Positions 387 through 4,802 of a stretch of DNA of 7,704 nucleotides are shown here, in pieces. Source of the stretch: a bacterium (GTDB lineage: Bacteria; SZUA-79; Acidulodesulfobacterales; Acidulodesulfobacteraceae); the NCBI GenBank assembly GCA_021821565.1, contig JAKACI010000067.1:1-7704 (forward strand), given 5' to 3'. The position numbers and the translations under genes were made by a program. Every line of letters starts with the position of its first letter. The stretch's first letter is position 1. The notes below the pieces were generated by a model that searched no databases, was not told the DNA's origin, and saw only the letters and a list, made by a program, of their open reading frames with translations.

Positions 387-1448
387 ATGAATAATAATAA
401 ACAAAATCCTGCGGTAGCGTCAGGATTTAAATTTGAAAGTCCTGACGCTTCAAGTAAAATATACAGAAGAATATTGACGGGGGATAGACCGACGGGCCCT
501 CTTCATCTGGGACATTATTGCGGCTCTTTAGAAAATAGGGTTGCCCTTCAGGACAAATATGACACATTTATATTAATAGCGGATATACAAGCTTTAACTA
601 CTAATTTTGATCATCCTGAACTTCTTAAACAAAATATATTTCAGGTTGCATTAGATTATCTTGCAGTCGGAATTGCGCCTGAAAAATCAACAATTATAAT
701 TCAATCAATGATTCCTGAGATAGCCGAATTGACAATATTTTTTTCAATGTTTATTTCAATAAATGCTTTAAAACATAATCCTACTATTAAAGCCGAGTCA
801 AAAGAAAAAGGCTATAAAGAACTTAACTACGGTTTTTTAGGATATCCCGTAAGCCAGACCGCCGATATAACAATCTTTAAAGCCGACTTAGTCCCTGTCG
901 GAATAGATCAATTGCCGCATATAGAATTATCACGAAAAATAGTAAGACGGTTTAATGAACTTTACGGCAGCACTTTAATTGAACCTCAAGCTCTTTTAAG
1001 CGAATTTCCAAAACTTATCGGTCTTGACGGAAATTTAAAAATGAGCAAGTCCTACGGAAATGCAATTTTTCTCTCGGATGATTTTGATACTATAAAATCT
1101 AAAATAAGAACTGCTTTAACCGACAAGTCGCGTATTCATACATCTGATCCCGGTCATCCCGATATATGCACTATTTTTTCTTATCATAAAACTTTTTCAA
1201 ATGACGATTTAACGAAAAATACCGAAAATGACTGCATTAATGGTTCAATAGGGTGCGTGCAATGCAAAAATAATCTTTTTGAATCAATTAAAAATATTTT
1301 AGTTCCTATGAATGAAAAACGGCAATATTATAAAGAACGACCTTCAGAAATTTGGGATATTTTGCTGACCGGTACCAATAAGGCAAAAAAGATTGCGGGA
1401 GAAACCTTAAAAGAAGTAAAGAATAATATGAAAATTAACTATTTTTAA
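387..1448 (+). CDS. trpS: Tryptophanyl-tRNA synthetase, probable [4Fe-4S] type
   Basis: Class I aminoacyl-tRNA synthetase that charges tRNA-Trp with tryptophan using ATP, in the cytoplasm; 353 residues against a usual 325-340. The first beta strand and HIGH-type motif read RILTGDRPTGPLHLGHY (HLGH at 40-43), and the KMSKS loop is intact at 218-222. The C-terminal domain carries Cys261, Cys283, Cys290 and Cys293, spaced C-x21-C-x6-C-x2-C. This nearly matches the C-x22-C-x6-C-x2-C motif that binds a [4Fe-4S] cluster in Thermotoga maritima TrpRS, so a cluster near the anticodon-binding end is likely. The N-terminus is about 25 residues longer than usual, and the DNA for that extension contains a strong hairpin (416-449). 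No other ATG is available before the catalytic core; a TTG at 474 would cut into the first strand. An overlapping ATG at 380 opens only a 4-codon frame. The dsrE-like gene follows after 14 bases, probably in the same operon. The function is certain; the exact start is less so. Confidence 0.95.
   Translation: MNNNKQNPAVASGFKFESPDASSKIYRRILTGDRPTGPLHLGHYCGSLENRVALQDKYDTFILIADIQALTTNFDHPELLKQNIFQVALDYLAVGIAPEKSTIIIQSMIPEIAELTIFFSMFISINALKHNPTIKAESKEKGYKELNYGFLGYPVSQTADITIFKADLVPVGIDQLPHIELSRKIVRRFNELYGSTLIEPQALLSEFPKLIGLDGNLKMSKSYGNAIFLSDDFDTIKSKIRTALTDKSRIHTSDPGHPDICTIFSYHKTFSNDDLTKNTENDCINGSIGCVQCKNNLFESIKNILVPMNEKRQYYKERPSEIWDILLTGTNKAKKIAGETLKEVKNNMKINYF
416..449 (+). repeat. Hairpin-forming inverted repeat inside the 5' end of trpS
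   Basis: Perfect 10-bp arms agcgtcagga (416-425) and tcctgacgct (440-449). In RNA the stem can extend inward by one G-U and two A-U pairs, to 13 bp with an 8-base loop (429-436). It spans codons 10-21, entirely within the N-terminal extension that ordinary TrpRS proteins lack. It is much richer in G/C than the surrounding DNA. It could modulate translation close to the 5' end of a nearly leaderless message, or be a palindromic insertion tolerated in a dispensable extension. Nothing follows it that looks like a terminator. Confidence 0.6.
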
Positions 1449-1462: not shown

Positions 1463-1840
1463 ATGGCAAACAAATTGTTTATTATGCTTCAAAACACGAC
1501 ACCCGATAATCCTCATCAATTAGGAGCACCCTTTTTTCAGGCTGCTGCCGCCGCAACTATGGATTATGAAGTAGAGATGATTCTTACGGCAGATGCAGGA
1601 CTTCTGATGAAAAAAGGCGTAGCGGAAAATTTAAAAGTAAAAGAAGGCAGCCCTAAATCTGTTTACGATTTTATTAAAGACGCTTATGAAGCGGGAGTTG
1701 TCCTCAAAGTATGCACACCTGCTTTAGAACTAAACAATTTTACAAAAGATGACCTTATACCTGAATGCAGCGGGGTCGTCGGCGGCGCTTATGTTGTAGA
1801 AATGGCAATGGATGATGATGTAAAAGTATTAGCTTATTGA
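1463..1840 (+). CDS. DsrE/DsrF-like family protein
   Basis: Small soluble protein of 125 residues in the DsrE/DsrF/DrsH-like fold, a group that includes sulfur-relay proteins carrying persulfide on a cysteine as well as many members of unknown role. It begins with a hydrophobic beta strand (KLFIMLQNT) and a glycine/alanine-rich helix (residues about 21-32). A second strand and turn follow (EVEMILTADAGLLMKKG), then VLKVCTPALEL at about 81-90. Cys84 sits in the loop where this family normally places its reactive cysteine; a second cysteine, Cys102, lies in IPECSGVVGGAYV near the C-terminus. There is no signal peptide and no second Dsr gene nearby, so a DsrEFH complex is not supported. It follows trpS after 14 bases with its own strong ribosome binding site, so the two are probably co-transcribed. 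The family call is good; the substrate and partner are unknown. Confidence 0.75.
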   Translation: MANKLFIMLQNTTPDNPHQLGAPFFQAAAAATMDYEVEMILTADAGLLMKKGVAENLKVKEGSPKSVYDFIKDAYEAGVVLKVCTPALELNNFTKDDLIPECSGVVGGAYVVEMAMDDDVKVLAY

Positions 1841-1860: not shown

Positions 1861-1891
1861 CTTAATTTATTAATTTATTAAGAGTTTTTTT
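1861..1891 (+). terminator. Weak intrinsic terminator of trpS-dsrE
   Basis: A 6-bp A/T-rich stem (cttaat 1861-1866, attaag 1877-1882) is followed by a run of seven T at 1885-1891. It lies in the 49-base gap between convergent genes, and the T-run overlaps the stop codon of the minus-strand ATPase gene. The stem is short, so termination efficiency is doubtful. Confidence 0.35.
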
Positions 1892-2549
1892 AAGAATTTA
1901 TACCCTGCTTGCTTGCGGAATATTCAAGAACTCCCTCGAGCAGGGTAAATCTATCTAAGCAAATTGTCTCACACGGCATAGATTTTACAAAAAGTTCATT
2001 ATTTACTAATCCTCCCGTCAAATAAATTTTAGCAGGTTTTCTTGCAAACCTATACATTGACATACATATGCCTTTTATTAATCTTGCAGCGGCAATACTC
2101 GGTTCAATATTAGAAGCAACCATATCAAAAACATGACCCATTCCTAAAAGTCCGCAAGTAGCAGTGATAAATTCTCTTTGAGGTTCTATTTTATTATAAT
2201 CTAAATTTAAATAATTTCCCAAAATTTCTATAGCCTGCCCTGTAAATGCCCCGCATTCCGTATTCCAATCGCTATGAATAAAATTGCCGTCTTCAAAAAC
2301 AACGTACTTGGCATCTCTTGAGCCTACGTCTAATAAAGTGAAAGATTTTTCTTTTATCAGTCTCTTTCCTGCATAAGAAAGAGCTATTATTTCATTTACG
2401 GATTGTTTTGCAAATCTATCTATATTATGTCCCGTCCCTATATCTGCCCTAAATGTTTTTTCAAGATCGGCAACCTTTTTTACATTCTTGTCATTCGTTT
2501 CGGTATTTAAAATTTTAGCATAAGTAGTTCCTGCATCTAAAAGTATCAT
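1890..2549 (-). CDS. BadF/BadG/BcrA/HgdC-type ATPase activator-like protein (Fe-S)
   Basis: Member of the Hsp70/actin-fold ATPases that activate 2-hydroxyacyl-CoA dehydratases and benzoyl-CoA reductases by ATP-driven electron transfer from a [4Fe-4S] cluster shared between two subunits. Visible signatures in order: phosphate-1 loop LLDAGTTYAKI (D5, G7, K12); GTGHNID at 38-44, in place of the usual ATGYGR; NEIIALSYAGKRL (52-64), matching the family's NEI-hA-GA helix. Then come the phosphate-2 loop LLDVGSRDAKY (72-82), Cys99 in TECGAFTG (family CAAGTG), Cys132 in TATCGLLGMG and the adenosine loop YLTGGLVNN (176-184). Cys99 and Cys132 correspond to the two cluster ligands of HgdC. At 219 residues it is shorter than the usual 250-270. 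The ATG at 2549 has GAGG about 13 bases upstream, which is distant, and an in-frame stop lies just before that. It is the last gene of the minus-strand run, 150 bases after the HgdB-like gene, its likely partner. That gap is A/T-rich with no clear terminator or promoter. Confidence 0.8.
   Translation of the reverse strand: MILLDAGTTYAKILNTETNDKNVKKVADLEKTFRADIGTGHNIDRFAKQSVNEIIALSYAGKRLIKEKSFTLLDVGSRDAKYVVFEDGNFIHSDWNTECGAFTGQAIEILGNYLNLDYNKIEPQREFITATCGLLGMGHVFDMVASNIEPSIAAARLIKGICMSMYRFARKPAKIYLTGGLVNNELFVKSMPCETICLDRFTLLEGVLEYSASKQGINS
1901..1947 (-). repeat. Inverted repeat in the 3' end of the activator-like gene
   Basis: Perfect 9-bp arms taccctgct (1901-1909) and agcagggta (1939-1947), with a 29-base spacer. 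One G-U and one G-C pair could extend the stem inward. It lies in the last coding residues of the ATPase gene. No T-run follows it on the minus strand, so it does not look like that gene's terminator. A transcript reading through from dsrE would also contain it. Its role is unknown, and it may be coincidental. Confidence 0.4.
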
Positions 2550-2699
2550 TATAATATGTCCGCCTCAGTTTTAGCATTATTAATAAATATTTCAAAATTG
2601 ACGATATAAATTATAAATTCTTAAAATTAAAAATGTTTTAATATAGCGCATTAATTTTTGGTAATTTTAGAAGTATAATAAAAAAATAAGCAATTTGTA

Positions 2700-3611
2700 T
2701 TAACCAACCACTCCGTTAAGCTGTAAAAATGCGGTTAGTTTTGCCACGGTGCTTCTTGTAAGCCCTAAATCCATATCAATAAAAATACCTCTCGGATGTT
2801 TGCTTGCAAGATAAGATGCAAGTCCTGCTTTTGGACAAAAGCTTTGCGCAAAAAAAACCGTAGGTACATCGGGGTTAAATTCTAACTCAAGTTGTAAATC
2901 ACCAGGCGTCAGGTTTTCAACACACCTTGTCCAGCCGTAAATATGAGTTTCATCGGGAAAATAATTTGCTAAAGAAAAATCTCCCCAGGGAGGCGTTCCC
3001 CAGAATGCGCATTTAGGCTTGACGTATTCAGGCTTGAACGGTTTTTTCTTTTCAATATCTCTATAAAAATAACCTGCGATTCGACCAAACTTGTCATCTA
3101 AAGGGATACCGCTTTTGCAGATAAAATCTCCTTTCCTTTCAATATCATTATTCTTAACGCGGGTTAATTTTATTCTTAATTCATTTACAATAAAATCCGC
3201 AACAAATCCCATTTCATTGCATCTTGCTATTTCTGAATCTTCAATTATTATCTCTGATATAGGATTTCTTCCTACAAGAACAGAATCAACGACATCTTCA
3301 GTCCAATAATCCGTTGCGGCTAAAATATTGGCTATAATCCGTTTAATTTGAGCGCAATATGCTTTAGGAAGAATATTTTCCGTAGGTTCGGTGATTAATT
3401 GGTCTACCTTGTACATATCTAAAGACAAGATGACAGCGTTTTTTTTAATAAGATCTTCCATAATTTCTTTTGGAGGGATACCGATAATTCCGACAAACGG
3501 TTTGTCTTTGGGATTTTGAAGAAATGATTTTTCTTTGCCCTTAACAAATCCGTGTCTTGTTAAAACCATATCTCGCACAGGGTTGTAACCTGTATTATCA
3601 TTATCTTCCAC
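2700..3611 (-). CDS. Compact 2-hydroxyacyl-CoA dehydratase (HgdB/BcrC)-like protein
   Basis: Probably a divergent, shortened member of the HgdB/BcrC family, whose members hold an Fe-S cluster reduced by the BadF/HgdC activator. Numbering is from the GTG at 3611 (303 residues). KPFVGIIGIPPKEIMEDLIKKNAV (about 37-60) resembles the family's opening VGYF-x-PEEL-x-AAG. Cys86 in KAYCAQIKRI falls where the first cluster cysteine is expected. KCAFWGTPPWGDFSLANYFP (200-219) resembles the RILLTGSP-GD segment. TVFFAQSFCP (251-260, Cys259) and GIFIDMDLGLTRSTVAKLTAFLQ (275-297) match the family ending QxFC then LExD-x-TRxEAFLE. Other cysteines are 131, 165, 201 and 230. Typical members have roughly 370-430 residues, so the middle is reduced. 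A TTG at 3626 would add five residues, but GAGGA lies 8 bases before the GTG and nothing suitable precedes the TTG. The activator-like ATPase follows after 150 bases. The substrate is unknown; the family call rests on motif resemblance only. Confidence 0.6.
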   Translation of the reverse strand: MEDNDNTGYNPVRDMVLTRHGFVKGKEKSFLQNPKDKPFVGIIGIPPKEIMEDLIKKNAVILSLDMYKVDQLITEPTENILPKAYCAQIKRIIANILAATDYWTEDVVDSVLVGRNPISEIIIEDSEIARCNEMGFVADFIVNELRIKLTRVKNNDIERKGDFICKSGIPLDDKFGRIAGYFYRDIEKKKPFKPEYVKPKCAFWGTPPWGDFSLANYFPDETHIYGWTRCVENLTPGDLQLELEFNPDVPTVFFAQSFCPKAGLASYLASKHPRGIFIDMDLGLTRSTVAKLTAFLQLNGVVG

Positions 3612-3619
3612 TTTTGCAA

Positions 3620-3624
3620 TCCTC
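3620..3624 (-). promoter_or_regulatory. Ribosome binding site that selects the GTG start at 3611
   Basis: GAGGA, read on the minus strand from 3624 to 3620, is followed by 8 bases and then GTG (3611-3609). The longer frame's TTG (3626-3624) overlaps this site and has no purine-rich site of its own; an in-frame TAA lies two codons upstream of that TTG. The GTG is therefore the better start for the HgdB-like gene. Confidence 0.6.
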
Positions 3625-3787
3625 AAAATTTAATATAAACAACTTTCTAAGATAAATATATTATTAGATATATTAATATATTATTTTATTTTTATTTGCC
3701 TAAGTTTTAATATAATATTAGAATATATTTTAATATAAAATTTTAACTTTAAATATGACTTTTATCACACTATATATGAATATATAC

Positions 3788-3887: not shown

Positions 3888-4802
3888 TCAGCAGACATCG
3901 CATATATATTCTTCCGCCATAGTAGCGGCTAATGCGCCGTCTCCCACAGCCGTAGCCACTTGAAGCAGTTTTTTTGCGCGGACGTCTCCTGCGCAAAAAA
4001 CTCCGGGCATAGACGTCATAAGAGTATAAGGGTCCGTTTTTATGAAACCGTATTCGTCCTTTTCAATATTACTTACAAAAGATGTTTGCGGTTTTATGCC
4101 GACGAAAATAAAAACTCCTTTAACGGGGATTATCGTCCTTTCTTTAGTCTTTACGTTTTCTACCGTCAGCGATTCTACCGTTTTAGAACCATTTATTGAA
4201 ATCGGTATATGTTCTAAGTTTAGTATAACATTTTCAGCGTTATGAAGTCTTTCCTGAATGATTTTCTCAGCCCTCAGTTCTTTTCTTCTGTGTACTAAAA
4301 TAAGAGAATTTACAATTCTTGCAAGATAATTAGCTTCTTTGACTGCGGTATCCCCTCCGCCTATAACGGCAATATCCCTATCTCTAAAAAATGGACCGTC
4401 GCAAGTTGCGCAATATGAAACTCCTTTGCCTATAAATTCTTTTTCTCCCGGTATTCCAAGCTTTTTAGGAGATGCTCCGACAGTAATAAGAACGGTGCTT
4501 GTATCATAATCAGCTTCTACGCCCTTTAATGTTTTACAGTTGCCATTGTCTTTAATTTCTTTTATCTCATCATAAACTATTTTTAATCCGAAGCTTTTGG
4601 CATGTTTTTCAAACTTATCCATGAGTTCTGCTCCTGAAATAGACGGGAAACCCGGATAATTTTCAATAACATCGGAAACGGCAATCTGACCACCTATTGA
4701 CATTTTTTCTATTAATATAATGTTAAGCCTCGCCCTTAAAGCATATATAGCGGCGGACAAACCTGCAGGACCGCCTCCTACAATTATCATATCATAAATC
4801 AT
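3888..4802 (-). CDS. trxB: Thioredoxin reductase, NADPH-dependent, with extra C-terminal CxxC
   Basis: Cytoplasmic flavoenzyme that passes electrons from NADPH through FAD and a redox-active disulfide to thioredoxin; 304 residues against about 320 in E. coli. Domain order is FAD site GGGPAGLSAAIYALRA (9-24), an NADPH domain holding the active-site disulfide CATC (Cys131, Cys134), nucleotide loop VIGGGDTAVKEANYLA (146-161), HRRKELR (171-177), and the final FAD motif VFCAGDVR (268-275). The HRR-x3-R pattern is the NADPH 2'-phosphate grip of classical enzymes, which argues against ferredoxin- or NADH-type relatives. The protein ends in EEYICDVC, so Cys301 and Cys304 form a second CxxC at the extreme C-terminus, unusual for this low-molecular-weight class. 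AAGGAGGT (4811-4804) lies a short 4 bases before the ATG; a second Met at codon 5 is a less likely start. The gene is divergent from the permease and upstream of the HgdB-like gene by 261 bases. No thioredoxin gene is adjacent. Confidence 0.92.
   Translation of the reverse strand: MIYDMIIVGGGPAGLSAAIYALRARLNIILIEKMSIGGQIAVSDVIENYPGFPSISGAELMDKFEKHAKSFGLKIVYDEIKEIKDNGNCKTLKGVEADYDTSTVLITVGASPKKLGIPGEKEFIGKGVSYCATCDGPFFRDRDIAVIGGGDTAVKEANYLARIVNSLILVHRRKELRAEKIIQERLHNAENVILNLEHIPISINGSKTVESLTVENVKTKERTIIPVKGVFIFVGIKPQTSFVSNIEKDEYGFIKTDPYTLMTSMPGVFCAGDVRAKKLLQVATAVGDGALAATMAEEYICDVC

Follow-up and report, generated by a model that had tools for sequence, protein, structure and literature searches.

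A conserved two-gene system predicted to form a compact ATP-driven low-potential reductase of the HGD-D/BcrC/DCCP fold

Two adjacent genes of the window (the whole stretch of DNA analyzed here, 7,704 nucleotides), a partner gene (PAR) and an activator gene (ACT), probably encode one ATP-driven low-potential reductase module, in which an activator ATPase would serve a compact partner with the HGD-D/BcrC/DCCP fold. Judging from alignments and structural models, PAR/ACT is a conserved, unnamed two-gene system, a compact variant of the ATP-driven activator/HGD-D kind that would work like DCCP/DCCP-R. The original prediction, an ATP-driven reductase made of an HgdB/BcrC-like partner and its activator, is supported by the fold models and by the co-occurrence of the two genes, and it remains a prediction. 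We consider the finding to lie far beyond chance because of the many homologues and the strict linkage of both genes.

Locus and gene boundaries

Both open reading frames were found where they had been predicted, adjacent and on the minus strand, and the genes of the locus are as follows.

387-1448, plus strand: trpS, convergent to PAR/ACT
1463-1840, plus strand: small DsrE-like gene directly behind trpS, convergent to PAR/ACT
1890..2549, minus strand: ACT (activator gene), predicted 219-aa compact BadF/HgdC-type ATPase
2700..3611, minus strand: PAR (partner gene), predicted 303-aa compact HGD-D/BcrC/DCCP-fold Fe-S protein
3888..4802, minus strand: trxB (thioredoxin reductase), located upstream of PAR on the same strand

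The window further encodes an amino-acid permease and an MFS transporter and includes the start of nadA; as had been claimed beforehand, no CoA-transferase or acyl-CoA gene was found among the window genes. The PAR reading frame is open to a TTG at 3626 (2700-3626, 308 aa), and a GTG start at 3611 gives the protein of 303 aa. The GTG is the likelier start because a GAGGA motif ends 8 nt upstream of it. PAR residue numbers are counted from the TTG at 3626.

ACT is a predicted activator ATPase

ACT matched TIGR00241 (E 6e-11), HgdC (1hux, E 2e-7), 4eht (E 2e-6) and the DCCP reductase 7yyl_E (E 3e-6), with scores under the curated cut-offs (21.2 vs 31.5 bits for PF01869 and 42.3 vs 125.4 bits for TIGR00241). 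In an alignment of 17 activators, two of which are ordinary HgdC-type proteins, D5, G7, G40, D74, G76, D79, K81, N96, C99, C132 and GG179-180 were invariant in 17/17. The phosphate and adenosine motifs and the two cluster cysteines of the HgdC/BadF type were thus all present in ACT, and the claim that the activator keeps both nucleotide loops together with Cys99 and Cys132 held for every aligned protein. The two cysteine codons are located as follows.

2154..2156, minus strand: ACT Cys132 codon, putative cluster cysteine, invariant in 17/17
2253..2255, minus strand: ACT Cys99 codon, putative cluster cysteine, invariant in 17/17

On this sequence evidence, ACT is predicted to be an activator ATPase of the BadF/HgdC type. 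It shares its nucleotide motifs and both cluster cysteines with HgdC (1hux), and differs from it in length (219 aa vs a chain of 270 residues), in its scores under the curated cut-offs and in the occurrence of the compact type only together with PAR, as seen across 80 genomes.

Predicted fold of PAR

As the top Foldseek match of the window PAR model, we obtained the double-cubane protein 6eno, with a probability of 0.99 but an E-value of only 5e-3 (model pLDDT 72, mediocre). The model of the 246-aa homologue P0021 reached a pLDDT of 94.1, and its Foldseek matches at E≤0.001 were HGD-D/Bcr/DCCP chains in 8/8 cases. Of the 246 residues of this model, 224-236 were aligned to HGD-D/Bcr/DCCP chains. 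Using VIA-align, ten HGD-D/Bcr/DCCP entries were top-ranked for both models. Taken together, the models give PAR the HGD-D/BcrC fold; this fold check had been set in advance for the 303-residue protein, and the predicted fold was not refuted.

In profile searches, the window PAR gave no match to Pfam PF06050 at E≤1 and lay under its curated cut-off. PF06050 weakly matched 33 of 87 PAR family members at E≤1 (best 1.7e-4), and hhalign gave a weak link of the PF06050 type (E 5e-4 and 1.3e-3, with probabilities of only 31 and 18%) in which the first two cluster-cysteine regions were aligned. A PDB search with the PAR family profile returned no match, and a single-sequence PDB match, 7rag (E 0.036), was judged to be due to chance. 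Comparing the two lobes of PAR by hhalign, we observed a link that spans just 12 columns (probability 88%, E 3e-6). At E≤10, the N-lobe profile matched 201/201 C-lobes (best 0.031, none <0.01) vs 6/201 shuffled ones. These values are suggestive of an internal duplication, which we do not claim.

Conserved cysteines and a missing stretch

Conservation of the PAR cysteines was counted in 201 proteins, namely 91 of the 93 homologues and 110 new ones from 120 listed profile matches, with the following result.

2835..2837, minus strand: PAR Cys264 codon, in QSFCxK, putative cluster cysteine 3, kept in 201/201
2922..2924, minus strand: PAR Cys235 codon, in GWTRCxE, fourth near-invariant cysteine, 200/201
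3219..3221, minus strand: PAR Cys136 codon, putative cluster cysteine 2, kept in 201/201
3354..3356, minus strand: PAR Cys91 codon, putative cluster cysteine 1, kept in 201/201 members and aligned with an HGD-D cluster cysteine

Cys91, Cys136 and Cys264 coincided with the three cysteines common to HGD-D proteins in 8/8 HGD-D rows and 19/19 family rows of a joint alignment (18 distinct family proteins, P0005 being entered twice), which bears out the description of a partner with family-like motifs. In our reading, the expected counterparts of these three are BzdO Cys95/128/380 and the proximal sub-cluster of BzdN. The double cubane of BzdN is held by six ligands, Cys36/73/100/263/293/327, according to PMC11971306. 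Placed by hand, Cys235 tentatively fits the D-x-C-T-G cysteine of BzdN-like subunits (BzdN Cys263); the automatic alignment set it elsewhere. Positions assigned by hand also put Gly49 of PAR at BzdN Cys36 and left BzdN Cys293 with no clear equivalent. Since the Cys36 position is a glycine and the conserved cysteines are four, not six, a full double cubane is unlikely in PAR, and a single cubane with an extra cysteine as ligand or neighbour seems likelier. At position 30 (P0021 numbering), at the end of N-lobe strand 2, cysteine replaces aspartate in 28/201 members (e.g. DLC for DLD), where it is a possible fifth ligand.

The spacing between cluster cysteines 2 and 3 was 123-128 residues in the 19 family rows vs 216-231 in the eight HGD-D proteins, that is, about 100 residues fewer in PAR. 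The alignment placed PAR gaps opposite 59-74 HGD-D residues at the position of the helical domain and opposite 35-43 residues in the C-lobe. In BzdNO, the intermediate helical domain (BzdN 156-227) helps to build the CoA channel, according to PMC11971306. Computation on the aligned sequences shows the shortening of PAR to fall at the place of this domain, a feature of CoA dehydratases and benzoyl-CoA reductases that is absent from the PAR rows.

Pairing, distribution and neighbours

Judged by their genomic linkage, PAR and ACT are one unit. An ACT reading frame followed PAR in 80/80 genome loci (the L079 copy being cut by the contig end). The pair survey covered 114 loci, some of them the same genome twice, with duplicates, the fragments L122/L123 and PF06050 loci excluded; both genes were complete in 113, and these lay on one strand in 113/113 cases, with ACT at most 30 nt from the PAR stop in 91 and 318 nt at the maximum. 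Distances among PAR and among ACT proteins co-varied (Mantel r 0.917 vs ≤0.232 in 1000 permutations, computed on 82 non-redundant pairs), common descent inflating this r. Across 80 whole genomes, a compact ACT profile scored at least 269 bits in 39/39 genomes with PAR and at most 57 bits in 41/41 without it. The co-occurrence of the two genes, proposed as a check by gene-neighbourhood survey, was not refuted, as they stood together wherever both could be seen.

We collected 93 PAR homologues at E≤0.01, of which 24 (23 and the window protein) entered alignment A1 and 87 alignment A2, with P0017, P0020, P0023, P0030, P0088 and P0091 excluded from the latter. A PAR profile detected at least 2472 protein clusters at E≤0.001 (best 7995 candidates scored), and 359 stretches in genome contigs encoded a relative, 80 of which were kept. 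Among the matches listed, the few named sources included Desulfobulbaceae, Eisenbacteria, Latescibacteria and Gastranaerophilales, and any name given to a listed partner protein was "hypothetical". Within the open-licence literature of PMC, we found no description of a PAR/ACT family. PAR was carried by 28/395 genomes of the Desulfobulbus phylum, 2/47 of the Eisenbacteria phylum, 6/7 of the phylum of genome G005, and 16/30 of the phylum of G001, which holds the close relatives of the window and which we take to be SZUA-79 (one copy is a fragment). No viral contig encoded a relative. Searching for anti-phage defence with PADLOC, we observed no match for either window protein and two weak matches (E 0.0012 and 0.017) for homologue P0021.

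In the window lineage, trxB was upstream of PAR in 14/14 copies (the window and L001-L013), and it was absent from the clusters of other lineages. The convergent trpS and DsrE-like genes were kept in the same 14/14 copies. Permease genes read as lptF/G lay upstream in 49 loci, and a gene for a RACo-type corrinoid-activating ATPase, a call made on one scanned representative (the L060 copy), lay on the opposite strand near the lptF/G-like-PAR-ACT block in 31 loci (L021, L026, L060, L072 and others). Elsewhere, inspection by eye revealed lysS with ABC-type genes, metallo-hydrolases and others. No recurrent acyl-CoA neighbour was present among the neighbour clusters identified, which cover a subset of the neighbours; together with the absent CoA-channel stretch, this strengthens the suggestion of a compact, single-partner branch with non-CoA chemistry. 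The neighbours of PAR/ACT change by lineage, and the simplest reading is that its function is self-contained.

Comparison with known systems

PAR/ACT shares with DCCP/DCCP-R (6eno, 7yyl, 7yzm) a fold found among the top Foldseek and VIA-align matches of the PAR models, an organization of one catalytic partner and one activator ATPase, and the lack of a tie to CoA substrates. It differs in size (about 420 aa for DCCP vs 303 aa for the window PAR and 246 aa for the homologue) and in cysteines, four being conserved in PAR and six serving the [8Fe-9S] double cubane of BzdN according to PMC11971306; because PAR lacks this cysteine set, we did not file it as a DCCP. With the class I benzoyl-CoA reductases BzdNO/MbdON and (R)-2-hydroxyisocaproyl-CoA dehydratase, it has in common two Rossmann-like lobes, the three cluster cysteines and an HgdC/BadF-type activator. 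According to the same source, these enzymes have two catalytic subunits and the intermediate helical domain, whereas PAR has neither: one PAR gene per genome was found in 7/7 pair-carrying genomes searched, and no PF06050-like gene in the window. Because these domain and subunit features are missing, we did not file PAR under the CoA dehydratases or the benzoyl-CoA reductases.

The 4-thiouridine-5'-monophosphate desulfidase TudS, with one domain of the HGD-D fold (PMC11971306), is another shrunken member of the fold superfamily. By contrast with its single domain and sulfur-transfer role, PAR retains both lobes and has a dedicated ATPase. QueF, the nitrile reductase that converts preQ0 to preQ1, possibly performs the same step as the pair in some phyla, as suggested by distribution and one operon type; it belongs to another family, depends on NADPH and, in the phylum of the window, occurs alongside the pair.

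Candidate substrates and roles of the pair

Outside the phylum of the window, the best lead to the substrate at present points to a precursor of 7-deazaguanine (queuosine) type. In the specific form of this explanation, which we consider rather unlikely, the pair would be an ATP-driven preQ0 reductase that turns the nitrile of 7-cyano-7-deazaguanine into preQ1 and replaces the NADPH enzyme QueF, de novo or in salvage. In the Desulfobulbus phylum, QueF (E≤0.001) was found in 0/28 pair-carrying genomes vs 221/367 others (197 over the cut-off; Fisher 2.9e-11, uncorrected for phylogeny), and in the 80-genome set a strong QueF (≥78 bits) was found in 2/39 genomes with the pair vs 21/41 without it (2 and 22 over the cut-off). 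Pair-carrying genomes of the Desulfobulbus, Eisenbacteria and G005 phyla had no QueF over the cut-off. QueC was over the cut-off in 31/39 pair-carrying genomes, with one further fragment, and QueH was present in 36/39 (missing in G190, G242 and G392). Among the QueC-positive Desulfobulbus-phylum genomes of this set, QueF was missing in 25/25 with the pair vs 9/13 without it (p 0.01). Both pair-carrying Eisenbacteria genomes (L094/L130 and L015/L093) encode the queuosine-precursor transporter YhhQ directly upstream of the pair (identified by Pfam Vut_1 and TIGR00697 in the G021 copy and by tblastn, 73%, in the G003 copy) and have QueH, with no QueC or QueF over the cut-off. Reduction of acetylene, hydrazine and azide by HGD-D-fold relatives, described in PMC11971306, is also consistent with such a reaction. 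However, QueF was found in 29/30 genomes of the window's phylum, 15 of the 16 pair-carrying ones included, alike with and without the pair and with no sign of decay at the active site: both groups have the CP-x-T/S-G-x-PD motif and an LQEH variant (the G455 sequence ends before the cysteine). With the pair in 16/30 of these genomes, we reject a simple replacement of QueF in this phylum. QueF was also lacking in 10/25 QueC-positive genomes without the pair, which points to a further route. A search of 40 sources, a subset of the loci, revealed no preQ1 riboswitch, and the mutual exclusion of the pair and QueF may reflect shared ancestry.

Alternatively, the pair could supply low-potential electrons to another enzyme, e.g. 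QueH or a corrinoid protein, or reactivate it, with PAR as a relay whose cluster is fully ligated by cysteine; this role appears about as doubtful as preQ0 reduction. If Cys235 completes a four-cysteine cluster, no iron would be left open, and PAR would relay electrons to another protein and not be the catalyst. This role is favoured by the near-invariance of that cysteine, by the RACo-type reactivase gene in the 31 loci and by QueH, which outside the Desulfobulbus and window phyla was present in 8/8 genomes with the pair vs 1/21 without it. On the other side, QueH was not enriched within the Desulfobulbus phylum (26/29 vs 17/20, p 0.68), RACo was not recognized beside the pair in loci of other phyla read by eye (first 60 residues per reading frame), and no client gene was constantly adjacent. 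Far less probable is that PAR is a diverged subunit of a 2-hydroxyacyl-CoA dehydratase or benzoyl-CoA reductase that acts with its activator on a CoA ester. The fold and cluster cysteines of PAR would suit such an enzyme, but the CoA-channel stretch is absent, the catalytic gene is single, the window has no acyl-CoA genes, and another PF06050 protein over the cut-off, as a possible second subunit, was found in only 2/7 pair-carrying genomes searched.

Several further observations concern the queuosine genes. The window-phylum QueF proteins (L164, L182-L210) read LQEH, and other QueF-II proteins mostly FHE. QueC and QueH, with neither the pair nor QueF over the cut-off, were found in the Desulfobulbus-phylum genomes G054, G057, G058, G059, G061, G062, G068, G074 and G075, which may have another preQ0 reductase or an undetected QueF. 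QueG was over the cut-off in 0/39 pair-carrying genomes vs 15/41 without the pair, and the pair-carrying G170 had one full-length homologue below the cut-off (135.5 bits). A third epoxyqueuosine reductase instead of QueG/QueH was ruled out by the frequency of QueH in pair-carrying genomes. In L065, queD/queE lie at a distance of about 3 kb, separated from the pair by opposite-strand genes, which we took as chance.

Proposed mechanism and significance

ATP-driven activators and nitrogenase-type systems are the main known biological deliverers of electrons at the lowest potentials. For the preferred reading, an ATP-driven reductase module, known relatives suggest that ACT would be a dimeric compact activator ATPase in which one [4Fe-4S] cluster is bound between the subunits by Cys99 and Cys132 of each; ferredoxin or flavodoxin would reduce it, and ATP hydrolysis would drive an electron into PAR. 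In PAR, a single cubane would sit between the two Rossmann-like lobes, bound by Cys91/136/264; Cys235 would either be its fourth ligand or lie beside the open iron. PAR would reduce a small non-CoA substrate at very low potential. Since we found neither a second catalytic subunit nor an accessory gene that is constantly present, the pair probably works on its own.

A two-gene version that lacks the CoA-binding stretch, occurs in several phyla and has its own ATPase wherever looked for would represent an unexplored enzyme family, and PAR/ACT may offer a minimal chassis for the study of ATP-gated electron injection. It is conceivable, if rather unlikely, that the pair is an oxygen-sensitive low-potential nitrile reductase that replaces QueF in anaerobes, the copy in the phylum of the window being redundant or re-purposed. 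We know of no earlier low-potential Fe-S reductase of such a kind that converts a nitrile to an amine; the pair would then be the first, and it would add a biosynthetic member related to tRNA to the benzoyl-CoA-reductase fold. If the queuosine lead is true, a missing step of tRNA modification would be filled in many anaerobes.
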